Shown piece by piece: positions 260 through 28,034 of a stretch of DNA of 32,818 bases (positions are counted from its first letter, which is position 1; every line of letters begins with the position of its first letter). The notes below the pieces were generated by a model. It saw only the letters and a program-made list of their open reading frames with translations. It searched no databases and was not told the DNA's origin. The DNA is from Spirochaetota bacterium. GTDB lineage: Bacteria > Spirochaetota > B62-G9 > DRHN01. Made by a program: the position numbers and the translations under genes. The stretch covers positions 1 to 32,818 of the forward strand of contig DRHN01000314.1 in the NCBI GenBank assembly GCA_011049595.1, given 5' to 3'.

Positions 260-658
260 ATGTTTGATGAATTGCCGGAATCAATTATCCGCTGTGATGA
301 AGAAGAGGCAAAGAGTTTAACACAGAAATATCCGGACCGCGGGAAAGAGCCTGAAGATATTTTAAAGAACGGCCTAATAGCGGGGATGGATGTTGTGGGG
401 CAAAGATTCAGGGTTTACGAAATGTATTTACCCGAAGTAATAATGTCGGCGACAGCGATGAAATCCGCGATGGGTTTATTGAAACCTATGCTTTCAAAAA
501 CAGAACGTTCAGCAGCCGGAAAGTTCGTTATGGCCACCATAGAAGGGGATGTACACGATATAGGAAAGAACCTGGTCACGATGATGCTGGAAGGCGCCGG
601 ATGCGCTGCGGGCTGTAAATCTTACCAGGAGACTGGCAGGAAAATAGAGACCGGTTGA
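260..658 (+). pseudogene. Truncated methyltransferase corrinoid protein (MttC/MtbC-like)
   Basis: The 132-codon frame starts at ATG 260 behind a GGAG ribosome site. Residues ~1-90 form the helical cap domain typical of corrinoid proteins (ILKNGLIAGMDVVGQRF, then a YLPEV segment). The cobalt-ligand motif follows as EGDVHDIGKNLV (D-x-H-D-x-G, around residues 95-106). Homology then stops after TMMLEGAG: the rest of the Rossmann-type B12 domain (the S-x-L and GG motifs, ~80 residues) is missing, and I cannot find it in another frame downstream. Family members are usually ~210 residues. The lower axial histidine is kept but the cobalamin tail pocket is lost, so I call this a 3'-truncated, probably inactive partner of the upstream methyltransferase. 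A short variant that still folds is less likely. Confidence 0.75.
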
Positions 659-5116: not shown

Positions 5117-5523
5117 ATGGCCCAGGAATATTCAATCTTCTCTGATATTATTCTCCCAATATTATTAATATGACCCTGGGTATATTCCTGGTATCGAAAG
5201 GTCAGGTTGATTTTCAGGGGTCATTACGGAGAATGCTGCGTTATCCGATGTTCTATGCTGTTGCCCTTGCATTTACGTTGAGATGTTTCCAAATTCCTGT
5301 CTGGCAGCCTCTTTTTATATCCATAGAGAGGATCTCTTCCGCTCTTGTACCTGTAGCACTCATTACTCTCGGGGCAAATATGGCAAAAGTCCGGCTGAAC
5401 TACAGACTCTTTGATGTGATCCTATCCGCTTTATTTCGTCTATTGGCTGCTCCTCTCATTACTTTACTGAGCATTGCCACGGTAAGCTTTTTCATTTATG
5501 GTGCCGCTATATTGTTCCCATAA
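5117..5523 (+). pseudogene. AEC-family (auxin efflux carrier type) transporter remnant
   Basis: ATG 5117 follows GAAGGGGAATCA and reads MAQEYSIFSDIILPILLI, a plausible start of an AEC transporter, then stops at TGA 5171. The frame that overlaps it (5170-5523, 117 codons) begins TLGIFLVSKG and continues with a membrane-protein sequence including LRYPMFYAVALAF and SALVPVALITLGANMA. These match the middle-to-late part of the ~300-residue AEC permeases, where the P-x-A-L-x-x-L-G-A segment is typical. More than 100 residues are missing between the two parts, and the C-terminus is cut at 5523. The gene therefore carries an internal deletion with a frame change and an end truncation, and cannot work as a carrier. 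Confidence 0.7.
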
Positions 5524-6931: not shown

Positions 6932-7975
6932 CTAATTTGTCACCTCATATACAGCGACTTCATCAATATAACCGTTGGTGGCAGCGATCAAATCACGACC
7001 ATTGAATTTTAGGACATCGATTTGAGCAGTTCCCGTTCCCGCTTCTATGATTGTTTTTTTCAAGTTCCACGATCTTGTGTCTTCTATTGTATAGAGGCAT
7101 AAATCCCTCTTTCGGGCTCTTGATCCGAGAATGAAAGCGTTCTTTCCGCCTATGCGGCCGGCCCAGATCCCGTGGCCGAACTCCGTTTTTAGCTCACAAA
7201 CGGTTTCCCACTTTCCAGCCATATTTTTATAAATACATGCTTTGTCGCCATGAAATGGCTGTATTGTAACGATCTCATCTTTACCGTCTTCATCAAAATC
7301 CATTAAGGCAAGCTCGCTCACCGGCTGTTCTATGATTTTGTCAATGATCCATTCCTTCTCTGCACGGGGTACATGTATTTTAAAAACACCCTCATCTCCG
7401 CTTATAAATACAATTTCCTGACCACGTTTCCTCTGCACGTACATACCATGATTCCTTGTTATTCCGTTCAAAAGCAGGTTTTTTTTATGCTTAGTTACGT
7501 GCTCGCCCCTTTGTATTTGAACAGCGTAAACCGCACCCGGGGATGACCAATCGTCCGGGCCTTCTTTCCTGCCGCAAAGTGACGCAGCTATTATGGTTTT
7601 TTTCCCGTTTGCTGAAACGAGCGCGATTCTATGAATATACGCTAAGTCCGCGATACGGTGTCTATTCCATAGATTGCGTGCATCCTTCCCGGCGGAATAG
7701 ATCGAAATGCCTGCGTTCACAGATTGAAAATTGGTGTGAAGCCCTTCGGCAACTGCAATGGCAGGGAAATCGAATGATTCCAGGGGAATTAATCCCATAT
7801 ATCCACCGGGACCTTTCGCGAGTGTTCGCGGTGTCAGTTCTTTTCCGGAACAGACGATTAATTCACCATTTATTACTTCGGATCCCGCAAAAAGAACTGT
7901 TTCCCCTTTTACATTTGCAGAACAAATAGAATAAGGAGATGCAAAAGAAGATAATTTTTTCTTTGTAATTTTCAT
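6932..7975 (-). CDS. FG-GAP/VCBS-like beta-propeller protein, cytoplasmic
   Basis: A 347-residue protein, last gene of the leftward operon, starting 25 bp after the SDR gene behind GGAAAG. It has no signal peptide or membrane segment. One clear FG-GAP/VCBS-type calcium-loop motif, MDFDEDGKDEIV (residues 225-236), is surrounded by repeated beta-rich stretches of ~45-50 residues (for example GGKNAFILGS, NGRDLIAATNG, NGKKTIIAA), which suggests a propeller. I do not recognise a catalytic family. It may be a sugar-lactonase-like or aldos-2-ulose dehydratase-like propeller, or an accessory protein. Its operon position ties it to the metabolism of the imported substrate. Function unknown. Confidence 0.75.
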   Translation of the reverse strand: MKITKKKLSSFASPYSICSANVKGETVLFAGSEVINGELIVCSGKELTPRTLAKGPGGYMGLIPLESFDFPAIAVAEGLHTNFQSVNAGISIYSAGKDARNLWNRHRIADLAYIHRIALVSANGKKTIIAASLCGRKEGPDDWSSPGAVYAVQIQRGEHVTKHKKNLLLNGITRNHGMYVQRKRGQEIVFISGDEGVFKIHVPRAEKEWIIDKIIEQPVSELALMDFDEDGKDEIVTIQPFHGDKACIYKNMAGKWETVCELKTEFGHGIWAGRIGGKNAFILGSRARKRDLCLYTIEDTRSWNLKKTIIEAGTGTAQIDVLKFNGRDLIAATNGYIDEVAVYEVTN

Positions 7976-8000
7976 TATACTTTCCGTTTTTTGATCAATA

Positions 8001-8726
8001 TTACAAAAGCTGTTTTTTCGGCCTTAATGAGATCTCGCAGATCGTGCTATTGTCCGGCTGCTCGAAAGCGAAACGGATCGAGCGGGCAACATCTTCAGGA
8101 TCGAGAGGAAGCACAGTTTTTTTCAGCTCAGCTGCAACCGGATTGTCAATAAACGGCGTCTCAACCATTCCGGGTTCAATGATTGTCACCTTTATGCCTC
8201 TCGGCGTGGCCTCTTTACGTAAACATTCCGTGAATGCAACCTGGGCGTGTTTGCTGGTTATATAAACAGGCTCTCCGACATAAGTTATTCTGCCGGAAAG
8301 CGAAGAGACGGTGATAATATGTCCCTCTCCCTGGATGTACATCTGGGGCAGGAAAGCCCTGACCGTGTTGAGATAACCTGCGACATTGATCGTGATAACT
8401 GTACGCCACCATTCCGGGTCGCCGCCGTCGATGCTCGAGGCATCGTGAACAGCCGCGTTTGGTACAAGCAGATCGATATGCCCGAACCGGTCCACCGTTT
8501 TTTTTACGAGCCCTTCCATCGCGGAAAAGTCCGAGATGTCTGCCGGATGCGCAACCGCTTCACCGCCCGCACTGGTTATCAGGGATACAACCTCTTCAAG
8601 AGGTTTGGGGCGGCGGCCAACCACAACCACGCTCACACCGGTACCTGCGAGCTCTTTTGCGGTGGCGGCACCGATCCCGGTTCCACCGCCGGTAATAACT
8701 GCCACTTTATTGTTATTTTTTTTCAT
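8001..8726 (-). CDS. Short-chain dehydrogenase/reductase (SDR)
   Basis: A 241-residue classical SDR. Cofactor motif TGGGTGIG (12-19), an arginine-rich stretch after the second strand (GRRP, 37-40) that favours NADP(H), PNAA in place of NNAG (89-92), and the catalytic S141/S142, Y155 and K159 (YITSK). It probably oxidises or reduces a hydroxyl/keto group of the compound imported by the CUT1 system in the same operon. The ribosome site is AAGGGA. It sits between the lactonase-like and propeller genes with 50 and 25 bp gaps. Substrate cannot be told from sequence. Confidence 0.9.
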   Translation of the reverse strand: MKKNNNKVAVITGGGTGIGAATAKELAGTGVSVVVVGRRPKPLEEVVSLITSAGGEAVAHPADISDFSAMEGLVKKTVDRFGHIDLLVPNAAVHDASSIDGGDPEWWRTVITINVAGYLNTVRAFLPQMYIQGEGHIITVSSLSGRITYVGEPVYITSKHAQVAFTECLRKEATPRGIKVTIIEPGMVETPFIDNPVAAELKKTVLPLDPEDVARSIRFAFEQPDNSTICEISLRPKKQLL

Positions 8727-8776
8727 TGGAATTCCCTTAAAAAAATAACCTGCATTGTTATCTCACATCATAGAAA

Positions 8777-9718
8777 TTAATCCTGTGGAGGTTCCGGAAG
8801 CATTTTTGACCAGGGGTGGTCGGCACTTGATGAAGGGCAAAAAGGCAGCCGGTAACCCGGAACGTCAACTTTTATGGTCACAATTGTACCAGGATCGTCA
8901 ATAGTAACAAATAAAGTGTCGAAATCCGGACCACCGAAACAGACATTTGTCGGCCTGGTACCGCCGGTCGGGATACCCTCTATAAGTTTTCCTGCCCTGT
9001 CGAAAACATAAACAAAGCCAACCCCATAGGTTGCAACGTATATGTTACCTTCCTCGTCGAATGCCATCCCGTCAGGACCTGTCAGGTTCTTGACCTTTAG
9101 GTCCGGAAGCCTGCAGAACTCGACTGGATTCCGGGCCTTGCCCGGACCCACAATGTCGTATGCCCAGATCTTGTTGGTCAAAGTTTCGGCAGCGTATACG
9201 CGGCCGTCCCGGACAAGGATACCATTCGGGAAAGCCAGACCGGTATGGATCTGGTACAGCGAACCGGTGGACCATTCGTATCCGTAAACAGACCCTATCG
9301 GTTTTTTCAGTGAACTGCCCCAGGGGTCGGTGAAAAAAAGGTTGCCGTCCTGATCGAAACATAAATCATTGGGACCGTTGATCTGTTTGCCACGGTACTG
9401 ATAAATGAAATCGGATTTCTCCCCTTCGGGTGTGACGCGTACTATCGACCTGCGGCCTTCATCTGTTACGTAGAGGCATCCATCCGGACCGAAAGCTAAT
9501 GCTGCCGGGATCCCTTCGATTTTTTCGGTTGAAGTGTTAAAGACTGTGTGAGTGACCATGGGTCTTGAAAGGTGGGTTGCTGTGATGTCGCCGCCCAACC
9601 TCGGCCAGTCCCGATCTTTCAGGGTTAAACTGCAGACATTGAGCATCCATCCGTTTGGAGCTACTACGGGCCCTTCGGGCGCGCTCAGTTTTTCCGCAAA
9701 TAAAACAGGTGTTCGCAT
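8777..9718 (-). CDS. SMP-30/gluconolactonase family protein
   Basis: A 313-residue six-bladed propeller hydrolase. The expected divalent-metal ligands of the SMP-30 family can be placed: E15 (APEGP), N117 (NGPND), N165 (FPNG) and D216 (GPDGMAF). Members open sugar lactones formed by dehydrogenases. Here that would act after an SDR or the alcohol dehydrogenase, giving a dehydrogenase-plus-lactonase pair inside one transport operon. No signal peptide, so cytoplasmic. The start at 9718 follows AAAGGA with 8-nt spacing. A 112-bp gap separates it from the amidohydrolase gene, the longest gap in this operon. Confidence 0.87.
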   Translation of the reverse strand: MRTPVLFAEKLSAPEGPVVAPNGWMLNVCSLTLKDRDWPRLGGDITATHLSRPMVTHTVFNTSTEKIEGIPAALAFGPDGCLYVTDEGRRSIVRVTPEGEKSDFIYQYRGKQINGPNDLCFDQDGNLFFTDPWGSSLKKPIGSVYGYEWSTGSLYQIHTGLAFPNGILVRDGRVYAAETLTNKIWAYDIVGPGKARNPVEFCRLPDLKVKNLTGPDGMAFDEEGNIYVATYGVGFVYVFDRAGKLIEGIPTGGTRPTNVCFGGPDFDTLFVTIDDPGTIVTIKVDVPGYRLPFCPSSSADHPWSKMLPEPPQD

Positions 9719-9830
9719 TTCTCATTTCCTTTTACTAATGGGTCATATGTAATCATACCCGGCATCCGGAGACGTGCATCGTCAGATAAAAGCTGTTTAT
9801 TTCAGGAGATATACAATTTTGTTTCCGCCA

Positions 9831-11105
9831 TTACCCTACTATTTCCACCCAGGGCGGCGGGTCCGGTATCTCGAGAGGTTTTAATATTCTCCCTTCGTTG
9901 ATAGTCATAATGTTTCGGACCCTCTTTTTACCCAACCGCTTGTTTCCATGAATATCCTGAAGTTCAAAGTTGCCTTTATCGATCACAAATGTAGCAATAT
10001 CTGCGAGGGCGCCGGGCTTCAGTGTCCCGGTTTCCCCTTTCAATCCTAATATCTCTGCGGGCCGACTCGTTGTTGCCTTTATTAGATCCGGGAGCGGCAT
10101 CCCGAGAAAAAGCATCTTGTCCATGCATGTCAGCAGGTTAAAAACCGGCTTACCGTCGCCTTTTATCTGGACTATCATGCTGCGGACGTCAGAACTTTCG
10201 GAGAGGTCGCCGAAGGCGCTTCCCTTGAGCGGGTCCATGAGATTCGGACCGAATATGCTCATCCAGTGAAGATCAGTAGAAATAACATCCGGCCAGTATC
10301 CCTGGTTCACGAGTGATTCAGAAACATCAAAGGAGAACGACCCTGCGCCGTGCCCAAGATCCATAATCAGCCCTTCGTCCCAGACTTTTTTTGCAATGTC
10401 CAGAATTTTTCCTTTTTTATCGACAAGCCCCATGTTTTGGCCGGTAAAACAGTGGGTTACAATATCGCCGGGTTTCAGAAAACCAAGCACTGTTTCGAGG
10501 CCCGGAGGCGCGGTCGAAAGGTGGACCATGATCGGGAGTTCCAGATCGTCGGCGGCTTTTCGAGTGCGGTGATAAGGCTCAAGGTCCATAGAGCCGCCGC
10601 TGCGCCCGGCGCGCAGTTTGATACCGGCCACGATATCGCGGTTAAGATTTACCACTCGTTTGAGGATCTCAACATTGCAGTACTCGCCAACGGCAAGCTC
10701 GTAATCCTGGGCAACAAGACCGATACAGGTAATGTTTACAAAAGCAAAAATTTTCATTCTGGATGGTACTATTACATGCTCACGAAAACCACCGAGTGTT
10801 ATTGCCCCTGCCGACCCCGCGTCGGCCCATGTTGTTACGCCGGTTTGGGACCCGATTGCGTCGGCGTCAACACCCCAGTATGTCACATCTTTGTAGACAT
10901 GAGCGTGCATGTCGATGAGGCCTGGAGTGACGTATTGACCGGCGGCATCGATTACACGAAAAGCGGATTTTGCCGGGATTTCGGAGTCTACGGCTGCGAT
11001 CCGGTTATGATTTACGGCTATATCCATTCTGCCGTTGTAACCGGCGCCCGGATCAATAACCTCTCCGCCCTTTATAAGAAGATCAAAACGCACAGTTTTC
11101 TCCAT
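9831..11105 (-). CDS. Amidohydrolase/deacetylase family metallohydrolase
   Basis: A 424-residue TIM-barrel amidohydrolase. Metal ligands visible: H67 and H69 in DMHAH, probable carboxylated lysine K163 in GIKLRAG, later histidines in IMVHLS and DIVTHCF, and the active-site aspartate in ISTDLH. The N-terminal FDLLIKGGEVIDP and C-terminal ADIATF parts form the small beta-sandwich typical of the dihydroorotase/deacetylase group. It resembles the EF_0837/AHA_3915-type proteins, whose natural substrates are poorly defined (N-acyl amino acids or lactone-like compounds). No good ribosome site precedes ATG 11105, so translation may be coupled to the ATPase gene 42 bp upstream. Confidence 0.88.
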   Translation of the reverse strand: MEKTVRFDLLIKGGEVIDPGAGYNGRMDIAVNHNRIAAVDSEIPAKSAFRVIDAAGQYVTPGLIDMHAHVYKDVTYWGVDADAIGSQTGVTTWADAGSAGAITLGGFREHVIVPSRMKIFAFVNITCIGLVAQDYELAVGEYCNVEILKRVVNLNRDIVAGIKLRAGRSGGSMDLEPYHRTRKAADDLELPIMVHLSTAPPGLETVLGFLKPGDIVTHCFTGQNMGLVDKKGKILDIAKKVWDEGLIMDLGHGAGSFSFDVSESLVNQGYWPDVISTDLHWMSIFGPNLMDPLKGSAFGDLSESSDVRSMIVQIKGDGKPVFNLLTCMDKMLFLGMPLPDLIKATTSRPAEILGLKGETGTLKPGALADIATFVIDKGNFELQDIHGNKRLGKKRVRNIMTINEGRILKPLEIPDPPPWVEIVG

Positions 11106-11147
11106 ATGGTTGTGATTTTTGATGGTTTATCCGGATCGAATGCCGGA

Positions 11148-12272
11148 CTATTTTTTCGTGCTCATGATACGTGTGCCACCCGAATCAAAAAGGTGGATTT
11201 TATCCGGTTGAATATTGAGCTTTATGTGCTCACCTTCCCGGATTTCAAACGACTCGGGAACACGGACTTTGCAGAACACTTTATCTGCAATTTCAACATT
11301 GACGAGGGTGTCAGAACCGATCGGTTCGACAAGACCGACTTCGCCGGCGATGCTGTCAGGCCCGCCGTTTTTTTCAACGTTGATATCTTCGGGGCGTATC
11401 CCCAGCGCTACTGTCGATCTTTCCCCGGGGTAAGTGAAACGGCTTTTAAGATCAAGTTTAAAAGGTCCGGAAAAAACAAGCCCGCTGCCCTCCTGGTTTA
11501 GAGTACCGTGCATGATGTTCATCTGCGGGCTCCCTATAAAAGTAGCCACAAACAAGTTCACGGGGTTCCTGTAAACTTCATGCGGTTTTCCGATCTGCTG
11601 AATAACGCCTTTGTTGAGAATAACTATCCGATCGGCCATTGTCATCGCCTCGACCTGGTCGTGAGTTACATAAATGGTAGTTTTTTTGAGACGCCTGTGG
11701 AGCTTTAAAAGTTCATCGCGCATCTGCACTCGCAGTAAAGCATCGAGATTTGAAAGCGGTTCATCAAAAAGAAAAGCAATCGGTTCGCGAATGAGCGCGC
11801 GTCCAAGGGCGACACGCTGCCTTTGACCGCCGGAAAGTTGTTCGGGGTATTTATCAAGAAATTCCTCGATTTCAAGCAAAGAGGCTACATCCACGACTTT
11901 TTTATGTATTTCGTTTTTTTGCACTTTCCGCATCTTGAGCGGATATCCGATGTTTCGCTCTACCGTCATGTGAGGGTAAAGCGCATAGTTCTGGAATACC
12001 ATGGCCACATCCCGGTCTTTCGGCGCAACATAGTTCACAAGGCGGTCATTGATATAGACCTCGCCCCCGGTAGCGTCCTCGAGACCGGATATGATCTTCA
12101 ACATGGTGCTCTTACCGCAGCCGGATGGGCCGAGCAAAACAAAAAATTCACCATCGAGGATGTCAAGATTTATATCACGAAGCACGGTGGTATCTCCGAA
12201 TTTTTTGGTTACTTCAACCAGTTCTATGGCCAGGTCCTGTCCGCTGTTTGAATTCTTTATGTTGTCAACCAT
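11148..12272 (-). CDS. CUT1-type ABC transporter ATP-binding protein (UgpC/MsmK-like)
   Basis: A 374-residue sugar-type ATPase. Walker A GPSGCGKS (48-55), Q-loop VFQNYALYPH (91-100), signature LSGGQ (145-149), Walker B FLFDEP (166-171) and VTHD switch are all present. A C-terminal MalK-like regulatory domain of ~130 residues contains the LGIRPEDI motif. It is the energiser of the CUT1 importer encoded just upstream in the same operon (permeases at 12308 and 13212, binding protein at 14254). It is the only CUT1 ATPase in the window and could also serve the second CUT1 set at 25.5-28.9 kb, because MsmK-like ATPases are known to be shared between transporters. Confidence 0.93.
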   Translation of the reverse strand: MVDNIKNSNSGQDLAIELVEVTKKFGDTTVLRDINLDILDGEFFVLLGPSGCGKSTMLKIISGLEDATGGEVYINDRLVNYVAPKDRDVAMVFQNYALYPHMTVERNIGYPLKMRKVQKNEIHKKVVDVASLLEIEEFLDKYPEQLSGGQRQRVALGRALIREPIAFLFDEPLSNLDALLRVQMRDELLKLHRRLKKTTIYVTHDQVEAMTMADRIVILNKGVIQQIGKPHEVYRNPVNLFVATFIGSPQMNIMHGTLNQEGSGLVFSGPFKLDLKSRFTYPGERSTVALGIRPEDINVEKNGGPDSIAGEVGLVEPIGSDTLVNVEIADKVFCKVRVPESFEIREGEHIKLNIQPDKIHLFDSGGTRIMSTKK

Positions 12273-12307
12273 TATTTATCATTACCTCTTGTGCTGAATA
12301 TTATCTT

Positions 12308-13210
12308 TTATTGCTTTAGCGCTCCCGCGAGAGAAGCGGAAATCCATTGTTTCTGCAGCAGTAAAAAGAAAATTGTGATCGGTATTATTGCCAAAAAAGC
12401 ACCGGCCGAAAATATTCCGTAGTCGAGATGCGTTACACCCCTCTGTGTCGCGATACCCACCGTTAATACATACATTTTGGTGCTCGATACCGCAACGAGC
12501 GGCCACAGAAAGCTTGTGTATTGCAGGTTGAAGGTCAGTACGCCGAGTACCACAATCGCAGGCCTGACGAGGGGTAGAATGATGGTCCGGTAGATGCCAA
12601 ACTCGGAGGTCCCGTCGAGACGGGCGGCATTTTCGAGGTCACTCGGCAGAGATTCGATGAAACTCCGCATCAGAAAGATGCCGATGGGGTTGGCAAGCGG
12701 GGGTAGGATAAGGGCCCAATAGGTATTGTAAAGCCCCATTCCGCGGATAATAAAAAAAAGCGGTATCAGGATCGCGGAAAAAGGGATCATAAGTGTGGCG
12801 ATCACGAAAACAAAAAGAACATTCTTGCCCGGGAAATCCATCTTAGCAAAGGCGTAGCCTGCCATCGAGTCGAACAATAGTTTTAGACCAGTCACTATAA
12901 GAGAGACGAACAGCGTGTTAAAAACCCACCTTGGAAATGAGGTTTTGAAAAGCAGGTGCGCGAAGTTCCCCAGATACACTTCTCTGGGTATCCATTGAGG
13001 CGGATATTCGAACAATAATTTTGAATGCTTGATCGCGGTTGTGATGATATAAAAGAAAGGGAGCATGGCGATAAGCGATGCGACAACCACAACCGCGTAA
13101 GAAACGGCCATCAGAAGCGGCCCGGCTTCCCCGAAACGGCGCATACCGAACATCCGGCGCAGTGATTGTTTACTCAAAACAGCTGTTGGATTTACATTTT
13201 TTCCGGGCAT
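12308..13210 (-). CDS. Carbohydrate ABC transporter permease (MalG/UgpE type)
   Basis: A 300-residue CUT1 inner-membrane permease. The first hydrophobic segment lies at ~30-58 after a 28-residue cytoplasmic lead. The EAA loop reads ENAARLDGTSEFGIYRTIIL, with the conserved G that contacts the ATPase. The start codon is 1 bp beyond the stop of the preceding permease, and its ribosome site AAAGGTGA lies inside that gene, indicating translational coupling. The order MalF-like then MalG-like is normal for this class. Confidence 0.92.
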   Translation of the reverse strand: MPGKNVNPTAVLSKQSLRRMFGMRRFGEAGPLLMAVSYAVVVVASLIAMLPFFYIITTAIKHSKLLFEYPPQWIPREVYLGNFAHLLFKTSFPRWVFNTLFVSLIVTGLKLLFDSMAGYAFAKMDFPGKNVLFVFVIATLMIPFSAILIPLFFIIRGMGLYNTYWALILPPLANPIGIFLMRSFIESLPSDLENAARLDGTSEFGIYRTIILPLVRPAIVVLGVLTFNLQYTSFLWPLVAVSSTKMYVLTVGIATQRGVTHLDYGIFSAGAFLAIIPITIFFLLLQKQWISASLAGALKQ

Positions 13211-13211
13211 T

Positions 13212-14198
13212 TTAGGTCACCTTTCTCCCGCGTAATAAGCGCATCTGGATGAGAGTCAGTATCAAAATAACGATCAAAAGCACAAACGACAGGGTGGCCC
13301 CGTAACCTACGTTGCTGTAGGTGAAAAGGTTCCTGTAGATGTACCACACGATCGTAGTGGTGGCGTTGGCAGGGCCGCCATCTGTCATCACAAAGACACT
13401 GTCAAAGATCTGCAGGGTATAGATGGTCACCAGAACAAGCGCGAAGAGTATTGTAGGACGAAGCAGCGGGAGCGTTAGATTGAAAAAGCGCTGCCGGCTG
13501 CTGGCGCCATCGAGCTGGGCAGCCTGATAGAGCTCGGATGGTAAGGCGATCAAGGCAGCAAGGAAATAAACTGCCCAGAACCCGATACCGCGCCAGATTT
13601 CAACTGACGCTACCACAGGCAGCGCCAGGCTGCTGGTACCGAGAAAATTCAAAGGTTTTCCTCCGAATGCCCGTATGATCAGGTTGAATGCGCCGAAATC
13701 GGGATGGACCATGAATAACCAGATCAATCCGGCTACCACAAGCGGGACTAAAACAGGAAAATATACAGCCGCGCGAAATACTGTCTGGCCCTTTCTGATA
13801 TTCCGCAGGAAAAGAGCCACGATCATACCAAATATTAACGCTCCGGGTATGATGAGAATAGCGTACATCGCTGAATTCCTGATAGAACGCAGCGCTAATG
13901 GGTCGGTGAATGCCTCTTTCCAATTACTTAACCCAACAAACTCGGTCGGTCCTATAACACCGCCGCTTCTCATCGAAAACCAGAAAACCCACACCACCGG
14001 CACAAGTAAAAACATTACGAAAAAGACCAGGTTCGGCGTAAGGAAGGCATAGCCTGTTATTATCCGCTTGCGCCTGTACTTTCGGGCCAGTTTGCGATGC
14101 TCTTCACCGGTCAGGCGCCGCCTCGGGGTCCGCAGGTTTTTACCCGCGGACCCCGAGGCGAACCTGTTTTCAAAATTCGTGTCTGCTGTTTTATTCAT
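13212..14198 (-). CDS. Carbohydrate ABC transporter permease (MalF/UgpA type)
   Basis: A 328-residue CUT1 permease. An unusually long arginine/lysine-rich cytoplasmic N-terminus of ~45 residues precedes the first membrane helix (TGYAFLTPNLVFFVMFLLVP). The EAA loop is YQAAQLDGASSRQRFFNLTL. Codons ~14-27 contain a perfect 15-bp GC-rich inverted repeat (14119-14160), which may have been inserted into the reading frame and explains the extended N-terminus. The ribosome site GGAGG is 13 nt upstream. Otherwise intact. Confidence 0.92.
   Translation of the reverse strand: MNKTADTNFENRFASGSAGKNLRTPRRRLTGEEHRKLARKYRRKRIITGYAFLTPNLVFFVMFLLVPVVWVFWFSMRSGGVIGPTEFVGLSNWKEAFTDPLALRSIRNSAMYAILIIPGALIFGMIVALFLRNIRKGQTVFRAAVYFPVLVPLVVAGLIWLFMVHPDFGAFNLIIRAFGGKPLNFLGTSSLALPVVASVEIWRGIGFWAVYFLAALIALPSELYQAAQLDGASSRQRFFNLTLPLLRPTILFALVLVTIYTLQIFDSVFVMTDGGPANATTTIVWYIYRNLFTYSNVGYGATLSFVLLIVILILTLIQMRLLRGRKVT
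14119..14160. repeat. Perfect 15-bp inverted repeat inside the permease gene
   Basis: CGCCTCGGGGTCCGC (14119-14133) and GCGGACCCCGAGGCG (14146-14160) are exact reverse complements with 12 nt between them. An inner GGT/ACC pair extends the stem around a TTTT loop after one mismatch. It lies in the N-terminal coding part of the permease, just after the binding-protein gene in transcription order. It is much GC-richer than its surroundings. It could damp translation of the permeases relative to the binding protein or be a small palindromic element. Confidence 0.8.
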
Positions 14199-14253
14199 TT
14201 GGGCGTCAAGCCTCCGGTTACACTGGCCGGGGAATCCTCTGCCCGGGCTTTGA

Positions 14254-15573
14254 TCATTTGAGTCTCGAGTTGATCTGCTCGCTTGCCTTATCTATTAACT
14301 CCTGAGGAGTGATTTTTCCCTGCATCATCTCATCAAAGAGCGGTGAAACCAAATTCTGGAACTCCACCGCCTGCGGGTGGAATTGAGGACCTTGAGCATA
14401 CTTTAACAGATCCATGCCGTCGCGAAGCACCTTGTCATCCGGGAAAATTTCGATCCCGTGTGTATCGTGAAGTGCCGGGTAAAGACCGGCAGTACTGTTT
14501 AAGTAGGTTACCTCATTCTCAGGTAAAGTCCAGAACTTGATCACTTCCCAGGCAGCCTCTTTGTTCTTGCTTGTCTTCGGAATTGAATAAAACCCGCGGA
14601 AAGTCAAAAGAACATCTTTAACGTTTCCGGGGATCGGGAAGAATTTATACTCGAAGTCGGGAGGGTTGCTTTTAAGAGGCCCTGTGATCGGCGGCTCGTC
14701 ATGTAAAATCCCGATCCTGCCTGCCTGGAACAGACCCCGCAGGCCGTCCCAGGTGTAGGCGCCAAAGTCGGGCGTCACTTTATCCTTGTTCTGAAGATCA
14801 ACGAGCCATTGAAAGGTTTCAACAAGCTCGGGTTTATTCATACCGCTCGCTGTAAAGTCTTCGTTTAGAAAGTCTGCACCCGACCTGAGCATGTAGCCGT
14901 ACCAGTCAAAGTGGGAAAAGTTGATCATACCTCCGGTACGGAACGCAAATCCGTATTTTCCGTCTTTTGTCATCTTAATCGCTGCGTCCCGGACTTTGTC
15001 CATTGAAGTGTACCAGTCGTCGGGCACACCGGCTTCCTTCAGCATGTCGAGGTTTGCTACAAAGTGAGATTCAGGTATCCAGACGTTGGGAACACCGCCC
15101 AAATAACCATCGGGCGCGGTAGCAGCATCCCAGAAGGCCACATTTTTGCGTTCCTCCTGCCAGGTCGGGTCGGTTACATACGAGGATAGTTCTTCCAGCG
15201 GGCCACCCTGGTAACAGAATTTCGAATACATGTGTTCCGGGAAATATATCACGTCGTGTGTTCCGCCTGCTAAAGCAGCAGTAAGCTGCGCCTCCATGGT
15301 CGGCCAGTCAAATGTCTCGAAGGTTACCTTTATATTTGGGTAAATCTTGTTGAATTCAACAATAATTTTATTGTGCAGTTCGACCTCATTCGGCCCGAAC
15401 GGTCCTTTATACATCAAGACGGTTCCTTTCATATCTTCCGGACGCTTGGAAGTTTCCCCTACGGCCGCATCCTCTTCACCGCCTTTTTTCTTCTTACCGC
15501 CGCTGAACGATATTGCAAAAACAGCGATGAGAAGCACACAAAAAACAATCATCGTAAATCGATTTTTAAACAT
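14254..15573 (-). CDS. CUT1 ABC transporter substrate-binding protein
   Basis: A 439-residue extracellular solute-binding protein (family 1), first gene of the leftward operon. N-terminus: KNRF, a hydrophobic core to about residue 24 and then SGGKKKKGGEED. There is no lipobox cysteine and no clear A-x-A cleavage site. The mature part has the family features: GPNEVELHNKIIVEFNKIYP near the start, LAGGTHDVIYFPEHM, and the C-terminal FRGFYSIPKTSKNKEAAWEVIKFW typical of sugar-type binding proteins. The ribosome site AAGGAGG lies 6-7 nt before ATG 15573. Ligand unknown; the operon suggests a polyol, sugar acid or acylated sugar. Confidence 0.92.
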   Translation of the reverse strand: MFKNRFTMIVFCVLLIAVFAISFSGGKKKKGGEEDAAVGETSKRPEDMKGTVLMYKGPFGPNEVELHNKIIVEFNKIYPNIKVTFETFDWPTMEAQLTAALAGGTHDVIYFPEHMYSKFCYQGGPLEELSSYVTDPTWQEERKNVAFWDAATAPDGYLGGVPNVWIPESHFVANLDMLKEAGVPDDWYTSMDKVRDAAIKMTKDGKYGFAFRTGGMINFSHFDWYGYMLRSGADFLNEDFTASGMNKPELVETFQWLVDLQNKDKVTPDFGAYTWDGLRGLFQAGRIGILHDEPPITGPLKSNPPDFEYKFFPIPGNVKDVLLTFRGFYSIPKTSKNKEAAWEVIKFWTLPENEVTYLNSTAGLYPALHDTHGIEIFPDDKVLRDGMDLLKYAQGPQFHPQAVEFQNLVSPLFDEMMQGKITPQELIDKASEQINSRLK

Positions 15574-15737: not shown

Positions 15738-15765
15738 ATTCTACAATATAATAAAATCCTGTCAA
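15738..15765 (-). promoter_or_regulatory. Sigma-70 promoter of the leftward eight-gene operon
   Basis: Read on the - strand: TTGACA (15765-15760), a 16-bp spacer and TAGAAT (15743-15738). Transcription would begin near 15731, about 158 nt before the binding-protein start. Confidence 0.65.
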
Positions 15766-16931: not shown

Positions 16932-17897
16932 TCATGTTCTTTGCTTTCTGGTCAGTTTCTGCATGGATCGAAGTTCCCTGGGAGGTTTCATTAGCATCCC
17001 AAACTCGGTGTATGAGACTTCTGCAACATATATGTCCCCTCTGGAATCTGCAGCTACCGCATGGGGAGCGTAAAATCTGCCGGGTTCATCTCCAAAAGGT
17101 TTGTCTCCAAGCCTCGTGAGAAGGTTGCCTTTTGTGTCAAGGATTGAAATACGTGGTCCCAGTCTCATCCCGGTCTGGTAAGCCTCGGGCCCCCCGCCAA
17201 AGTATTCTCCTACACAAACAAATGGCGCCTCACTTTCACAGATTTGTATACAAGCGGTCCGGGAAAAGTTACCCCACTGCGTCTCAAACGTGCCTTCCGG
17301 GGAGAAAATTTGAATACGTCGATTCTCACGGTCACCGATATATATCCAGCCATCCCTGTCTATAGCGATATCGTGGACTATGTTAAACTGCCCCGGGTCA
17401 GTGCCTGACTTGCCCCAGGAGTTGAGGAGCTTTTTCCCATCAGGTGTGAACCTGTGCACTCTCGCGTTTCCGTAGCCGTCAGCCACAAGAATTTCTTCAT
17501 TGCGGGGGTCGACTGCAACGCGGGTAGGGCCGTTGAAGGGTGTCCCGCTCATGGCAGGGGAGTGCTTGTTTCTCTCGGAGAGCGTAAAAAGGAGCCTGCC
17601 CTCATTTGTGAACTTTCGGATTGAGTGATCTTTATTATCGACACACCACACTGTATCGTCAGGGCCGATGGTGACTCCGTGCGGGTTGGTGAATAAACCC
17701 TCACCCCATGACCTCAGGAAATGACCGTCGGAGTCGAATATTATCATAGGGTGGTTGCCGCGGTTGAAGATATAGACGTTGTCGATGGAATCAACGTCTA
17801 CTGCTGTAGCTTCCCGGTAGGACCAGCCCTCCGGAAGCTCGCCCCAGTTTTTTCCGGAAACCTCATATAAGAAATTGCCACTGCCCAATGTAGCCAT
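16932..17897 (-). CDS. NHL-repeat beta-propeller protein
   Basis: A 321-residue propeller with at least five NHL-type blades, seen as repeated patterns such as NPHGVTIGPDDTVWCVDNKDHSIRKF split over ~50-residue units, GPTRVAVDPRNEEILVADGYGNARVHRF, and VHDIAIDRDGWIYIGDRENRRIQIF (described by their G/V-x-V/I-D-x-x-G cores). The layout resembles peptidyl-alpha-hydroxyglycine amidating lyase-like and other NHL proteins. No signal peptide. It lies 105 bp downstream of a phosphotriesterase-family gene in the same direction and may be co-transcribed. Ribosome site AAGGAAGG, somewhat distant (~12 nt). Catalytic role not provable; a lactonase or lyase function is possible. Confidence 0.82.
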   Translation of the reverse strand: MATLGSGNFLYEVSGKNWGELPEGWSYREATAVDVDSIDNVYIFNRGNHPMIIFDSDGHFLRSWGEGLFTNPHGVTIGPDDTVWCVDNKDHSIRKFTNEGRLLFTLSERNKHSPAMSGTPFNGPTRVAVDPRNEEILVADGYGNARVHRFTPDGKKLLNSWGKSGTDPGQFNIVHDIAIDRDGWIYIGDRENRRIQIFSPEGTFETQWGNFSRTACIQICESEAPFVCVGEYFGGGPEAYQTGMRLGPRISILDTKGNLLTRLGDKPFGDEPGRFYAPHAVAADSRGDIYVAEVSYTEFGMLMKPPRELRSMQKLTRKQRT

Positions 17898-18002
17898 TTA
17901 TTATTCAACCTTCCTTTCCATGTTTCTTAACCGGTTTGAGAATCTCAATCCCGCGAACAGTAAATCCCCGGGGACCAGAGTCTCTGTCAATCAGGGCTGT
18001 TA

Positions 18003-19073
18003 TTAAACCCCGGTAAACCGGAACAACCTTTTCGGGTTCTCCACCAATATTGTGCTTATCTGCTCCTCACTCATACCTTTCATTTTCATTCCCGGAACAA
18101 TTTCACGAATGATATGCGCGTACCCGTATCCGCCGTACGCGACATATGTGTGCTTGTAGCAGTGATCGCAGGAGATAAGGATATGTTCCAGATATCCCTT
18201 GGCGATAAGTTCAATGATCGCGTTGACACGCTGTGCATCACTCGGTGTTTCTATTAGGCGGTCTTGAAAGGAGAAGAAAACCCCCGCAGGCTGCCCGAAA
18301 TTATCAAGCTCGATGAAGCATCCTGCCTCCACGAATTTGTCCAGCGTGCGCTGCGCAAGGCTGAATATATCGCAGTGGCACATAACGGTGTGAGACAGGT
18401 CGGCACCGGCGTCCTTCAGTATATCGATAATCTCAAGCGCCAGTTCATCATCCGGGCTGGTGTGTATACTGAGCGGCGCCCCGGTTTGCTGCTGTGCGAT
18501 CGCGGAAGCACGGAGCACTTTTTTTTCATTTTCTTCCAGAGGCTTTGAGCATCCTATTTCGCCGATAAGACCTGCCCGTATCCCTGTATCCCCGACACCT
18601 TCTTTTATGTCTCTGATGATCCCGCGGGCAACTTCTTCGTCTGTCATGCCGGACAGCTCGTCAGGGTGAGATGGCGCCACATAATATCCTGACCCCATGA
18701 TTATGTTAAGACCGGTTGCTCTCGCAATGTTGGCCAGCCCAATAGGGTCGCGGGACATGCCGATATTTGTCACTTCGACTATCGTACCGCCTCCTGCCCG
18801 TTTGTAAAACATGGCCTCATCGATTGCCAATTTTTGGTCCATCAACTGCATATTGTCAATGTTATTTATCCAGTGGGTTTTTATCCAGTAGAGATTGTCC
18901 ATGCGGACAGGCTGATGCGCAAAGAATCTATCACTTGCTGCGTCCGGCTCGATGTAGCAGCCTTTTGTTAAATCCATCAAGAGGTGCTCGTGAGGAAGTG
19001 TTATGCCTAAAGATTCAGATTCGATCAGGCCAAGCACGGTCTGTGCTTTCCCTGCCAATTCAGATTTGTTCAT
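18003..19073 (-). CDS. Phosphotriesterase-family metallohydrolase, copy 1
   Basis: A 356-residue TIM-barrel hydrolase of the phosphotriesterase/PHP family. Metal ligands by position: H28 and H30 (HEH), bridging E172 (LIGEIG, a glutamate instead of the carboxylated lysine of true phosphotriesterases, as in E. coli PHP), H204, H233 and D303 (SCDH). Known relatives include lactonases and uncharacterised carboxyl-ester or amide hydrolases; true organophosphate activity is unlikely to be the natural role. GGAGGT precedes the ATG at 19073, and a promoter lies at 19162-19189. It is ~45-50% identical by eye to the neighbouring copy and has exactly the same length. Confidence 0.88.
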   Translation of the reverse strand: MNKSELAGKAQTVLGLIESESLGITLPHEHLLMDLTKGCYIEPDAASDRFFAHQPVRMDNLYWIKTHWINNIDNMQLMDQKLAIDEAMFYKRAGGGTIVEVTNIGMSRDPIGLANIARATGLNIIMGSGYYVAPSHPDELSGMTDEEVARGIIRDIKEGVGDTGIRAGLIGEIGCSKPLEENEKKVLRASAIAQQQTGAPLSIHTSPDDELALEIIDILKDAGADLSHTVMCHCDIFSLAQRTLDKFVEAGCFIELDNFGQPAGVFFSFQDRLIETPSDAQRVNAIIELIAKGYLEHILISCDHCYKHTYVAYGGYGYAHIIREIVPGMKMKGMSEEQISTILVENPKRLFRFTGV

Positions 19074-19161
19074 CGAACATTTACCTCCGGTATAATTGAG
19101 AGCAGATTCGAAATATCCGTCAAAAGACTATTCGTCTGCTTTTGTTCCCTTTGCAAATAAC

Positions 19162-19189
19162 ATTACAATGGGTTGTGAAAGCATGTCAA
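19162..19189 (-). promoter_or_regulatory. Promoter for phosphotriesterase-family copy 1
   Basis: Read on the - strand: TTGACA (19189-19184), a 16-bp spacer and TGTAAT (19167-19162). It gives copy 1 its own start about 85 nt upstream of the ATG, separate from copy 2. Confidence 0.6.
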
Positions 19190-19226
19190 GAAAATTCTAA
19201 AAGTCGGGCAAGCACGAAGTTGCAAG

Positions 19227-19245
19227 AATGCGGCTTGTCCGCATT
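19227..19245 (-). terminator. Hairpin between the two phosphotriesterase-family genes
   Basis: AATGCGG (19227-19233) and CCGCATT (19239-19245) form a perfect 7-bp stem around a 5-nt loop, 36 bp past the stop of copy 2. No T-run follows in the - direction, so it may be a weak terminator or an mRNA 3'-end stabiliser. Confidence 0.35.
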
Positions 19246-19281
19246 AGTACCTTGTGGAGCTGTAATCAGCATTTGTGTATT

Positions 19282-20352
19282 TCATTTATCAAGCGCAAGC
19301 AGGCGTTTTGGATTTTCAACCAGCAGCGTGTTAATTTGTTTTTCAGTCATACCGAGAGTTTTCATCAACGGCACATCATTCCGCAATATATGTTCATACC
19401 CTCCTCCCCCGTAAGAGGTTAGAAGGTATTTATTGCAACGGTCAGTGGCTATGGTGATCTGCTCTATATAGCCCCCGTTTATAAGGCGCATTATGTCCTG
19501 TATTCTCTGTTTATCCGTTGGTGTGTTCTGATGTAGACCAAAGTAGGGTGTGTATATTCCTTCTATTCCGAAGGTGTCGTACTCCACACAGCAGCCCATG
19601 TCCAATAACTTATGGATGATCTCACTGCTGAATTCCATACAGTCCATATGACTTATAACGACCCGGGTAAGATCCGCGCCGGTTTCTTTTAATATCCCGA
19701 CATTCTCCAGAACTAATTCTTCTTTTACGATAGGATGGCTTGGATGAACGTTTATCATTGCGCCTGTTTCCTGTTGTGCTGCAGCAGCAGACCGCAGTGA
19801 TTTTCTTTCGAATTCTTCTATCGGGGCGTTGACCCCGACTTCGCCAATTACACCTGCCCTGATCCCAGAGTTGCCTGCACCCTCTTTTATATCTTTGACC
19901 AGCATTTTTGTCATTTCATCCTCTGTCATGGCCATGGTTTCCGATGACTGAGACGCACATAGATAAAAACCGGTCCCCATAATAATATTGAGCCCGGTAG
20001 CTCTCGAGATGCGGGCCAGGCCCATAGGGTCGCGGCTGAGGCCGATGCTGCTCATTTCGACTATAGTGCAGCCCCCGGCGAGCTTGAAACGCATTGCTTC
20101 TTTTACAGCTAAATTTTCATCTGTAAGCCTGAGGTTATCAAGGTTATCGTTGCAATTGTACCTGACAATGTACAGATTTTCCAGGCTCAGAGGCTGGTGC
20201 GCTATCTCTCTTGCCGAAGCTTCAGCGGGTTCCTTAAAGAATACTGATAGATCAGCCAGCAGATGTTCGTGTATCGAAGTGATACCCAGCCGATCGGGGT
20301 TTATCAAACCTAATACTGTTTGCGCCTTCCCTTTGGAATCAATTTTATACAT
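19282..20352 (-). CDS. Phosphotriesterase-family metallohydrolase, copy 2
   Basis: Metal ligands H28, H30 (HEH), bridging E171, H203, H235 and D304 match copy 1 closely, and long blocks such as GKAQTVLGLI and ATGLNIIMG are shared. I choose ATG 20352 rather than the in-frame ATG 20373. AAAAAGG lies about 10 nt before 20352, none precedes 20373, and the chosen start gives 356 residues, the same as copy 1. Differences concentrate in the loops after the histidine ligands (for example DHCYKH versus DRCNKY), so the two enzymes probably act on different but related substrates. It is divergent from the aminotransferase at 20474 with a ~120-bp shared control region. Confidence 0.87.
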   Translation of the reverse strand: MYKIDSKGKAQTVLGLINPDRLGITSIHEHLLADLSVFFKEPAEASAREIAHQPLSLENLYIVRYNCNDNLDNLRLTDENLAVKEAMRFKLAGGCTIVEMSSIGLSRDPMGLARISRATGLNIIMGTGFYLCASQSSETMAMTEDEMTKMLVKDIKEGAGNSGIRAGVIGEVGVNAPIEEFERKSLRSAAAAQQETGAMINVHPSHPIVKEELVLENVGILKETGADLTRVVISHMDCMEFSSEIIHKLLDMGCCVEYDTFGIEGIYTPYFGLHQNTPTDKQRIQDIMRLINGGYIEQITIATDRCNKYLLTSYGGGGYEHILRNDVPLMKTLGMTEKQINTLLVENPKRLLALDK

Positions 20353-20417
20353 AGGACCGTACCTTTTTAACATTATTGGCTGGATTAAAACAATACACCA
20401 TAAATAATTTATATTAC

Positions 20418-23315: not shown

Positions 23316-24287
23316 ATGGATTTTAAAAAAAGCGATCTAATCGAGATGTATCGAAGTATGTATTTGATCAGGCATTTTGAGATAAAAACGAAAGAGTTAT
23401 TTGCGGCTGCCAAAATCCCCGGATTTGTTCACCTGTACGCGGGGGAAGAAGGGGTAGCTGTAGGTGTATGTTCAGCATTGCGTAAAGATGACTACATAGG
23501 AAGCACACACAGGGGGCACGGGCATTGTATCGCGAAAGGCGGTGACGTAAAATATATGATGGCTGAATTGTACGGTAAAGAGACCGGGTACTGCAAGGGC
23601 AAAGGCGGCTCCATGCATATTGCTGATTTTGACCTTGGTATACTTGGTGCGTGCGGAATTGTGGGAGGTTCTCTCCCGTTAATAACCGGCGCGGCATTAA
23701 ATTTTAAATACAAGGAAACCAATCAGGTAGCTGTCGCGTTTTTTGGTGATGGGGCCACGAATCAGGGCAGCTTTCATGAATCAGTGAATCTTGCCGCTAT
23801 ATGGGATCTTCCGATATTGTTCGTTTGTGAAAATAATCAATACGCGGAATCCACCCATATCTCCAGCGTAATGAAGGTTGAGAAAGTTGCGGACCGTGCG
23901 GCAGCTTATGGTATCCCCGGAATAACGGTGGATGGTAACGATGTATTGGCAGTACATGATGCCGCATTGGAAGCGATAGAGAATGCAAGGCAGGGAAAAG
24001 GGCCGACCTTTTTGGAGTGCGTTACATGCAGGCATTATGGTCATTTTGAGGGTGATGCTGATACTTATCGAACAAAAGAAATGGTTGAGGATTGTAAAAA
24101 ACGTTGTCCCATAAAAAAGCTCGGGGCTTTTTTGGTGGAAGAAGGCTTCGTGTCTGAAAAAGAATTAGAAGAAGTGGACAAAAATGTAGAAGAAGAGGTC
24201 GCTGGCGCTATTGATTTTGCCGAGAGCAGCCCGTGGCCGAAACCGGAGGAAGCGTTTACAGATATATTTGTCACACCTTATTACTAA
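23316..24287 (+). CDS. acoA: Acetoin/2-oxoacid dehydrogenase complex, E1 component alpha subunit
   Basis: A 323-residue thiamine-diphosphate enzyme subunit. HRGHGH (65-70) holds the active-site histidines, and the ThDP motif GDGATN begins at 144 with the matching ENNQ at ~172-175. KGKGGSMHI (94-102) is typical of the family. The size and the short N-terminus match acetoin dehydrogenase AcoA and the related pyruvate-type E1-alpha subunits; these cannot be told apart with certainty by eye. It decarboxylates or cleaves the substrate and, with E1-beta, loads the acyl group onto lipoyl-E2. It is the first gene of a six-gene operon; its ribosome site is a modest AAGG. Confidence 0.88.
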   Translation: MDFKKSDLIEMYRSMYLIRHFEIKTKELFAAAKIPGFVHLYAGEEGVAVGVCSALRKDDYIGSTHRGHGHCIAKGGDVKYMMAELYGKETGYCKGKGGSMHIADFDLGILGACGIVGGSLPLITGAALNFKYKETNQVAVAFFGDGATNQGSFHESVNLAAIWDLPILFVCENNQYAESTHISSVMKVEKVADRAAAYGIPGITVDGNDVLAVHDAALEAIENARQGKGPTFLECVTCRHYGHFEGDADTYRTKEMVEDCKKRCPIKKLGAFLVEEGFVSEKELEEVDKNVEEEVAGAIDFAESSPWPKPEEAFTDIFVTPYY

Positions 24288-24365
24288 AATAATTTAATTA
24301 ATTGTCTGTGGTAATTCCAGGCTTGGCTGGTAGATTTTCCAAATCTAATTAGAGGTATTACGGGC

Positions 24366-25370
24366 ATGAGAGAGATATTGCTTGTAGAGGCTATACGCGA
24401 GGCTTTAAGTGAAGAGATGCGCAGGGACGAATCTGTTTTTCTTATGGGCGAAGATCTGAGGATCTGGGGCGCCCCTCTGGGTCAGACCAAGGGACTCTGG
24501 GATGAGTTCGGAGATAAAAGAGTTTTGGACACACCAATATCTGAAGCGGGATTCGTAGGGGCCGGGGCTGGTGCCGCGTCCCTTGGGTTGAGACCTGTTG
24601 TCGAGCTGATGTTCATCGATTTCTTCGGTGTCGCCGGTGATCAGATATTCAATCAAGCCCCGAAGCTGAGGTACATGTTCGGCGGGCGTATGAAAGTGCC
24701 TATGGTTTTAAGGACCGTGATAGGTGCGGGGATGTCTGCGGCAGCGCATCATTCATCGTCCGCTTATTCCATTATAGCCCACATACCGGGCTGGAAATGC
24801 GTAATACCATCGACAGCTTACGACGCGAAAGGATTGCTGAAAACAGCGATTAGAGACGACGACCCGGTAATGTATTTTGAACACAAGATGCTGCTCAATG
24901 TAAAAGGGGAGGTTCCGGAAGAGGAGTATACAATTCCTTTTGGTGAAGCGAGCATTAAGAGGAAGGGGAAAGATGTAACAGTAGTCGCTTTAGCATGGAT
25001 GGTGCACAAAGCTCTTAAAGCTGCCGAAAAACTGTCGGAAGAAGGCATTGATGTGGAGGTGATTGACCCGAGAACCATTGTTCCTCTGGACAAAAAAACA
25101 ATTATTGACTCCGTGAGAAAGACCGGCAAACTGGTTGCGGTGGATGAGGATTATGAGCGATGCGGCTTCAGCTCTGAAATATCCGCTATGGTTACCGAGG
25201 AAGCATTCGATAGTTTAACTGCCCCGATCATGCGTGTGGCGACACCTACAGTACCCATACCTTTCAGTCCGGTATTAGAGGATGCGGTTATCCCGAATGA
25301 AGATCGTATAATTAAAACAGTGAGGGAAGCTGCTTTATATAAAAAAAGTAAATTGCAGGCTAATATTTAA
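24366..25370 (+). CDS. acoB: Acetoin/2-oxoacid dehydrogenase complex, E1 component beta subunit
   Basis: A 334-residue partner of E1-alpha. The ThDP-activating glutamate is E60 in DTPISEAGFVG. The FNQAPKLRYMFGG segment and the C-terminal transketolase-like half (VVALAWMVHKALKAA, then EVIDPRTIVPLD) are typical. The gap from E1-alpha is 78 bp. In most such operons the E2 gene comes next, but here a binding protein and two permeases intervene. GAGG at 24352 is the probable ribosome site. Confidence 0.88.
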   Translation: MREILLVEAIREALSEEMRRDESVFLMGEDLRIWGAPLGQTKGLWDEFGDKRVLDTPISEAGFVGAGAGAASLGLRPVVELMFIDFFGVAGDQIFNQAPKLRYMFGGRMKVPMVLRTVIGAGMSAAAHHSSSAYSIIAHIPGWKCVIPSTAYDAKGLLKTAIRDDDPVMYFEHKMLLNVKGEVPEEEYTIPFGEASIKRKGKDVTVVALAWMVHKALKAAEKLSEEGIDVEVIDPRTIVPLDKKTIIDSVRKTGKLVAVDEDYERCGFSSEISAMVTEEAFDSLTAPIMRVATPTVPIPFSPVLEDAVIPNEDRIIKTVREAALYKKSKLQANI

Positions 25371-25451
25371 TTTATCCTTTTTGACCTTTATTAAATATTG
25401 AATGAATAAACATGTAGTTTTATATGGATCGGACGTTGTCATTTAACACAA

Positions 25452-25480
25452 TATAATTAAAAAATTTACAGGAACTAATT
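25452..25480 (+). promoter_or_regulatory. Possible internal promoter with overlapping GAACTAATT operator
   Basis: A perfect TATAAT (25452-25457) lies in the 127-bp gap before the CUT1 binding-protein gene, without a good -35. GAACTAATT (25472-25480) is placed about +9 to +17 from the implied start and matches the motif repeated at 32.6-32.76 kb. This suggests repressible internal expression of the importer. Confidence 0.4.
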
Positions 25481-25497
25481 AAATAAAGGAGGTAAAC

Positions 25498-27024: not shown

Positions 27025-27042
27025 TTTTGATATCCAGGACAG

Positions 27043-27082
27043 GGAGGGGGCTGTATTAAATGGTCCCCTCCTTCTTTTTATT
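27043..27082 (+). terminator. Attenuator-like hairpin between binding protein and permeases
   Basis: GGAGGGG (27043-27049) pairs with CCCCTCC (27065-27071), extendable by wobble pairs at both ends, followed by TTCTTTTTATT. This is a typical intercistronic partial terminator that keeps binding-protein mRNA in excess over permease mRNA. Confidence 0.6.
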
Positions 27083-27107
27083 CTCAGGACAATAAAAGGG
27101 GTTTCTT

Positions 27108-28034
27108 TTGGGCCGGGCTAATGATAATATTTCGGTTGTTCCGGAATCGCGGTGGGGAAGCAGCTTCCGAAAATGGATACGGAGGCACGAAGGATGGCTG
27201 ATGATTGCGCCATCCATGGCTCTTATGCTGGCGGTCGGCATTTTTCCCCTTGTATTCTCGCTTGGAATCAGCTTTATACGATGGGAGCCGAAGGTCCCGG
27301 GACGACCCTTCGTCGGCCTGGCCAATTTCAAGGACATCCTGACAAGCTTAGAGTACTGGAAGGCCATGTGGACAACGACGATCATCGTCGTCTCGGGTGT
27401 GACCATCGAGTTCTTCTTCGGGCTGGGGCTTGCGCTTCTCATGGTCGGCCATGTGAGGGGAAAACGTTATTTCCTGGCCCTGCTTATTCTCCCGGTCATG
27501 ATGGTTCCCGTAGTTGTCGGCTATACGTGGCGTATGCTCTGGCATCCCGCATTCGGACCGATCAATCAGGTCCTCGGATGGTTTGCCGGCCACCGGGTGA
27601 CGATCTCCTGGCTTACAAGACCGAAGACGGCTTTTGTAGCCCTTATCGTCACCGAATTCTGGCAGTGGACCCCGTTCATGTTTCTTGTCCTGCTTGCCGG
27701 CCTGTCATCTGTCAATCCGGAACTGGGGGAGGCCGCTTCAATCGACGGGGCCTCGAAATGGCAGACTTTCTGGAAAATAACGATCCCGGTCATCAGTCCC
27801 GTGGTCATGGTTGTCATCCTGATCCGGACTATCGAAGCATTGAAGATTTTTGACATCGTGTATGTCGTCACTCACGGAGGGCCCGGTCTTGCGACGCAAA
27901 CGATCGCTTACTACTTATACAAGACAGGGGCGCGTTTCTTCCGCATGAGCCATACCGCGGCGGGATCGTGGGTCTTCCTGATTATATTGGCGGTCATAAT
28001 CACATTGGCCGTTCGACAATTCCAAAAAGAGTGA
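27108..28034 (+). CDS. Carbohydrate ABC transporter permease (MalF type, second system)
   Basis: A 308-residue CUT1 permease. The TTG start at 27108 follows AAAAGGGG with ~7-nt spacing; there is no in-frame ATG before the first membrane helix (WLMIAPSMALMLAVGIFPLV). The EAA loop reads LGEAASIDGASKWQTFWKITIP. A lysine/arginine-rich cytoplasmic lead of ~25 residues precedes the membrane part. It is 83 bp after the binding protein and separated from it by a hairpin. Length and motif order are normal. Confidence 0.9.
   Translation: MGRANDNISVVPESRWGSSFRKWIRRHEGWLMIAPSMALMLAVGIFPLVFSLGISFIRWEPKVPGRPFVGLANFKDILTSLEYWKAMWTTTIIVVSGVTIEFFFGLGLALLMVGHVRGKRYFLALLILPVMMVPVVVGYTWRMLWHPAFGPINQVLGWFAGHRVTISWLTRPKTAFVALIVTEFWQWTPFMFLVLLAGLSSVNPELGEAASIDGASKWQTFWKITIPVISPVVMVVILIRTIEALKIFDIVYVVTHGGPGLATQTIAYYLYKTGARFFRMSHTAAGSWVFLIILAVIITLAVRQFQKE

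Follow-up and report, generated by a model that had tools for sequence, protein, structure and literature searches.

A probable uptake-and-catabolism operon with a variant COG3964-type amidohydrolase in an uncultured Spirochaetota lineage

Results and discussion

Eight intact minus-strand genes fill positions 6932-15573 of a Spirochaetota contig, and their best reading, which we consider fairly probable from their sequences and neighbourhoods, is an uptake-and-catabolism operon combining import, ester and lactone hydrolysis and one oxidation. A gene set of this kind is known and ordinary, this combination is unusual, and together with a loop in the amidohydrolase it makes the operon a variant. 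Should the module act as proposed, it would give a first handle on how this uncultured Spirochaetota lineage feeds; failing that, the operon is an ordinary catabolic one.

Layout of the operon and its source

All eight open reading frames are complete and their coordinates match (Table 1). The transcript order is binding protein, permease, permease, UgpC-type ATPase, COG3964-type amidohydrolase (abbreviated AHS), SMP-30 protein, SDR and an orphan propeller, with intergenic gaps in that order of 55, 1, 35, 42, 112, 50 and 25 bp, the 112-bp gap lying between AHS and SMP-30; the earlier note was thus right to describe co-directional genes with mostly short gaps. A scan of the region for terminator-like sites on the minus strand found none in any operon gap, every one being intragenic. 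About 165 bp ahead of the first gene lies the promoter-like site TTGACA-16-TAGAAT, the top consensus match in the scanned region, and its score of 11/12 was equalled by 10 of 500 dinucleotide shuffles of the same intergenic stretch, so the ‘strong promoter’ proposed previously is a fair sequence reading but not a proven one. A single transcript for the eight genes is likely on this layout.

Table 1. Features of the operon, with the basis of each assignment.
Feature	Position	Strand	Basis
Orphan, probably a VCBS/FG-GAP-like propeller	6932..7975	-	PF22301 below cut-off; one DxDxDG-like loop
Classical SDR	8001..8726	-	PF00106 180 bits; cofactor and catalytic motifs
SMP-30/gluconolactonase-family protein	8777..9718	-	PF08450 (SGL); Ca-site residues
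COG3964-type amidohydrolase (AHS)	9831..11105	-	NF006689 above cut-off; 2ics, 2ogj; metal ligands
UgpC/MalK-type ATPase with TOBE domain	11148..12272	-	NF008653
CUT1 permease, UgpE/MalG-like	12308..13210	-	PF00528 (BPD_transp_1)
CUT1 permease, UgpA/MalF-like	13212..14198	-	PF00528 (BPD_transp_1)
CUT1 solute-binding protein	14254..15573	-	PF01547 (SBP_bac_1) 92 bits
Promoter-like site TTGACA-16-TAGAAT	15738..15765	-	11/12 consensus, upstream of operon

The source is a Spirochaetota MAG with an assembly of 4.4 Mb and an estimated completeness of 89% and contamination of 7.7%, and the 33-kb window, i.e. the whole stretch of 32,818 nt analysed here, is one whole contig of it. Orthologues of 79-81% identity in a genome of the same family and a second genus, CP070841.1 (‘Spirochaetota bacterium isolate bin100’), argue against this contig being contamination.

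Three ABC importer gene sets occur on the contig (886-4974, 11148-15573 and 25498-28919), which suggests a catabolic island. Its other genes include a truncated corrinoid protein of 132 aa related to MtgC/MtbC (260-658, plus strand), in which the DxHxxG cobalamin motif is kept and followed by a stop, and a 117-aa ORF that matches only the C-terminal part of the Mem_trans carriers (5170-5523, plus strand), both probably remnants. Adjoining the operon, an NHL propeller and two phosphotriesterase-family proteins lie consecutively on the minus strand (16932-20373) and form a second lactone/ester-hydrolase set, the phosphotriesterase-family pair being related to PRK09875 and the phospho-furanose lactonases, far under the cut-offs. 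Further along come the genes of a 2-oxoacid dehydrogenase (E1 alpha, E1 beta and E2), in which another solute-binding protein and two permeases stand between E1 and E2 (23316-30192, plus strand), a PF04199 cyclase (30273-31217, minus strand), which has a 48% relative in one Chloroflexota genome (L107:16161-17144), close to a CUT1 importer akin to that of the operon, and a 3-hydroxy-D-aspartate aldolase (BhcC)-like protein, below the cut-off (31242-32381, minus strand), with a 38% relative near the CP070841.1 AHS locus.

The importer and the three enzymes

Pfam and NCBIfam profiles confirmed the family names given previously to the importer, the amidohydrolase, the SMP-30 protein and the SDR. 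The CUT1 (UgpC-type) importer set is complete, comprising the solute-binding protein, two BPD_transp_1 permeases and a MalK/UgpC ATPase with TOBE domain that scores 469.7 bits against the NF008653 cut-off of 432. Importers of the CUT1/UgpC class usually transport sugars, polyols or glycerol phosphates.

AHS scores 385.6 bits against a cut-off of 371 for NF006689 (amidohydrolase/deacetylase metallohydrolase; PRK09237). Its binuclear metal site (HxH, Lys, His, His, Asp) is complete, the six ligands being H67, H69, K163, H195, H218 and D278, and these are invariant across 35 aligned sequences. Among solved structures, 2ics (EF0837) and 2ogj (Atu3266) are the nearest in sequence. A structure model built from an input alignment without the plasmid rows (pLDDT 87.5) superposes in Foldseek on both, with a TMq of 0.80, and also on 8je0/8wzy, 2024 entries titled ‘a novel amidohydrolase’. 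Past the strand-8 metal ligand Asp278, at about residues 288-320, AHS carries a 33-residue insertion which is present in its CP070841.1 orthologue and missing from the 33 other relatives in the 35-row alignment, whilst in a second CP070841.1 copy of AHS the insert is shorter. The low modelled confidence of the loop is expected, because only two rows carry it. This extra loop, which lies beside the active site, probably adapts the enzyme to the substrate of the operon. By analogy with the studied COG3964 enzymes, AHS itself probably hydrolyses an ester or amide bond next to a carboxylate; Atu3266, the nearest studied relative, is known as an esterase for alpha-acyloxy acids and not as a sugar deacetylase.

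The SMP-30 protein exceeds the PF08450 cut-off widely (130.1 against 26.3 bits), and in the alignment with DFPase the Ca-site residues E15, N117, N165 and D216 are present, matching the four calcium ligands of DFPase. We infer that this protein hydrolyses a lactone ring, yielding the free acid. The SDR carries both TGxxxGxG and Ser-YxxxK, with TGGGTGIG at residue 12, SS at 141-142 and YITSK at 155, and none of the NCBIfam sugar-dehydrogenase profiles reached its cut-off. Its PDB matches are led by clavulanic acid dehydrogenase and include ribitol 2-dehydrogenase, and these nearest relatives do not fix the substrate class of the SDR.

The orphan propeller

The product of the last gene is beta-rich and has no signal peptide apparent in its sequence. 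Residues 95-250 match PF22301, the propeller of aldos-2-ulose dehydratase, weakly (20.5 bits against a gathering score of 27) and the FG-GAP match to PF01839 is weak also (E 0.029), both under threshold, so that the ‘FG-GAP-like propeller’ label of the earlier note is a weak one. There is a single DxDxDG-like loop, DFDEDGKDE at residue 226, which fits the VCBS calcium motif; both the motif and the assignment of aldos-2-ulose dehydratase (AUDH) to the VCBS superfamily have been described (PMC8023676). The single-sequence fold had a pLDDT of 38 and was not used. No homologue of the propeller was detected in 60 relatives, 301 Chloroflexota, plasmids or viral contigs, and in CP070841.1 a CocE/NonD hydrolase occupies its position after the SDR. 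The propeller may have an accessory part or may recently have taken the place of another hydrolase, such as the CocE/NonD protein of the relative; an accessory hydrolytic or lyase step is the least unlikely guess at its role, and it is the weak point of the operon reading.

Conservation of the module and origin of AHS

In CP070841.1, orthologues of SMP-30 (81%), SDR (79%) and AHS (66%) lie within 6.4 kb (L012:3581-9966), in a row on one strand that runs SMP-30, SDR, CocE/NonD hydrolase, URO-D-family methyltransferase-like protein, AHS and zinc-type alcohol dehydrogenase. The second AHS copy of this genome directly follows two binding-protein genes (68% and 64% identity) and is interrupted by a 100-N assembly gap (L011:16357-16456), which sits exactly where the window has its permeases and ATPase; these genes may therefore be missing from the CP070841.1 record at this point. 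No strong permease match was found in the CP070841.1 genome, an absence that proves nothing because the gap cuts the importer locus.

Amongst Chloroflexota, one locus (L015) has the order SDR (44%), AHS (47%) and permease (57% to the UgpA/MalF-like protein), and in another (L093) AHS is accompanied by an SMP-30 relative and by an ABC importer of another kind. Importer genes thus adjoin AHS in three separate loci, in the window, CP070841.1 and L015. In the stretches of 7-20 kb read around some 20 Chloroflexota AHS loci, none had all operon parts together and an SMP-30 relative occurred only in L093. Most of the AHS relatives in this phylum have other, varied neighbours, and in two genomes importer relatives of 49-52% identity are located away from AHS, so that beyond the family the module does not hold together as a fixed unit. 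The Chloroflexota SMP-30 loci L108 and L109 contained no other operon part, nor did any occur around AHS on plasmids of Thermomicrobium, Mesorhizobium and Rhizobium, and the SMP-30 relatives carried by plasmids of Rhizobium and Variovorax gave no further information.

Those varied neighbours, together with the absence of the propeller from the CP070841.1 locus, would be expected if unrelated genes from different pathways had piled up by chance behind an importer, but this is improbable given that SMP-30, SDR and AHS keep company in a second genus, that the 2 of 60 relatives with SMP-30 are also the two with AHS, and that importer genes recur beside AHS. On the linkage in CP070841.1, L015 and L093 and this co-occurrence, we regard SMP-30, SDR and AHS as a real module, tied to this importer. 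The concern of the earlier note that the enzymes might prove to belong to unrelated pathways in relatives applies in part to AHS, given its other neighbours in most Chloroflexota loci.

AHS was present in 2 of the 296 Spirochaetota genomes sampled, as against 61 of 400 from Chloroflexota, and in the AHS tree the two Spirochaetota rows are nested among Chloroflexota with modest support. The simplest reading is that AHS was probably acquired by this Spirochaetota family from Chloroflexota by horizontal transfer, and perhaps the whole module was also acquired horizontally.

Proposed pathway and substrate

In the route that we propose, a small carbohydrate or hydroxy-acid derivative would enter through the CUT1 importer, AHS would cleave an ester or amide bond of the imported compound, the SDR would use NAD(P) to oxidise a hydroxyl that has been freed or belongs to a ring, and SMP-30 would open a lactone to give a free acid for central metabolism elsewhere, the SDR, AHS and SMP-30 steps being listed in no particular order. 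Literature searches for a described pathway with this gene set gave nothing relevant.

The earlier note had envisaged one operon for a sugar or polyol bearing acyl or amino groups: after import, AHS would remove the acyl group, the SDR would oxidise the product to a lactone and SMP-30 would hydrolyse this lactone. Such a scheme corresponds to a nonphosphorylative sugar route. The deacetylase element in the NCBIfam name of the AHS family and the ribitol 2-dehydrogenase match of the SDR speak for such a route, as does a cluster on a Microvirga ossetica plasmid (L112), in which a CUT1 importer with UgpC, SMP-30 and SDR recurs alongside the sugar-acid enzymes aldose epimerase and mannonate dehydratases, and which shows that sets of importer, SMP-30 and SDR do occur. 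Against it, the window proteins scanned include no sugar-acid dehydratase, aldolase or aldose epimerase, and thus do not make up the nonphosphorylative sugar oxidation cluster (sugar 1-dehydrogenase, lactonase, sugar-acid dehydratase and aldolase); moreover, the SDR has clavulanic acid dehydrogenase as its top match and stays under every sugar-dehydrogenase cut-off, and the studied COG3964 activity is on alpha-acyloxy acids. We give this full sugar route a low likelihood. What stands of the earlier claim is the operon itself, the intact AHS, SMP-30 and SDR residues and the linked trio, but not the sugar substrate, lactone formation by the SDR or the step order.

Alternatively, and with a similarly low likelihood, the genes may serve salvage or detoxification of lactones and hydroxy-acid esters, such as signal lactones or esters of aromatic or plant origin, instead of acting on sugars, in which case the cargo of the importer would be an organic acid or ester. 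The alignment of SMP-30 with DFPase and the 7ris/8djf lactonases would suit this, as would the CocE/NonD acyl hydrolase in the CP070841.1 module and the presence on the contig of two phosphotriesterase-family lactonase relatives, an NHL propeller and a PF04199 cyclase; these flanking hydrolases, however, are outside the operon, and the usual cargo of CUT1/UgpC importers points the other way. Within the uptake-and-catabolism reading, a sugar-acid-like substrate is favoured by the class of the importer and by the Microvirga cluster, but the window proteins scanned hold no matching dehydratase or aldolase.

A bolder suggestion, which we hold to be doubtful, is that AHS represents a new COG3964 subfamily whose loop gives a new ester or amide specificity, and that with SMP-30, SDR and an AUDH-like lyase or isomerase propeller it would form an undescribed importer-fed route. 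For COG3964, a large enzyme family with few assigned substrates, the AHS insertion at the active site and the conserved SMP-30/SDR/AHS trio offer a compact starting point for screening substrates.

Comparison with known systems

The COG3964 amidohydrolases Atu3266 and EF0837 share with AHS the fold, the six metal ligands and an NCBIfam score above the cut-off, but the window protein has the added 33-residue insertion and about 30% identity to the solved members. DFPase and the 7ris/8djf lactonases have the SGL domain and the four Ca-site residues in common with the SMP-30 protein, which outside its own family is about 32-49% identical to database relatives. The propeller resembles aldos-2-ulose dehydratase and VCBS proteins in a weak profile match and the DxDxDG-like loop, but the orphan scores under the curated cut-off and only the propeller domain model matches. 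The Microvirga ossetica cluster L112 shares with the operon the importer class and an SMP-30 gene followed directly by the SDR; it has mannonate dehydratases, RraA and aldose epimerase, whereas the Spirochaetota operon has AHS and the propeller instead.
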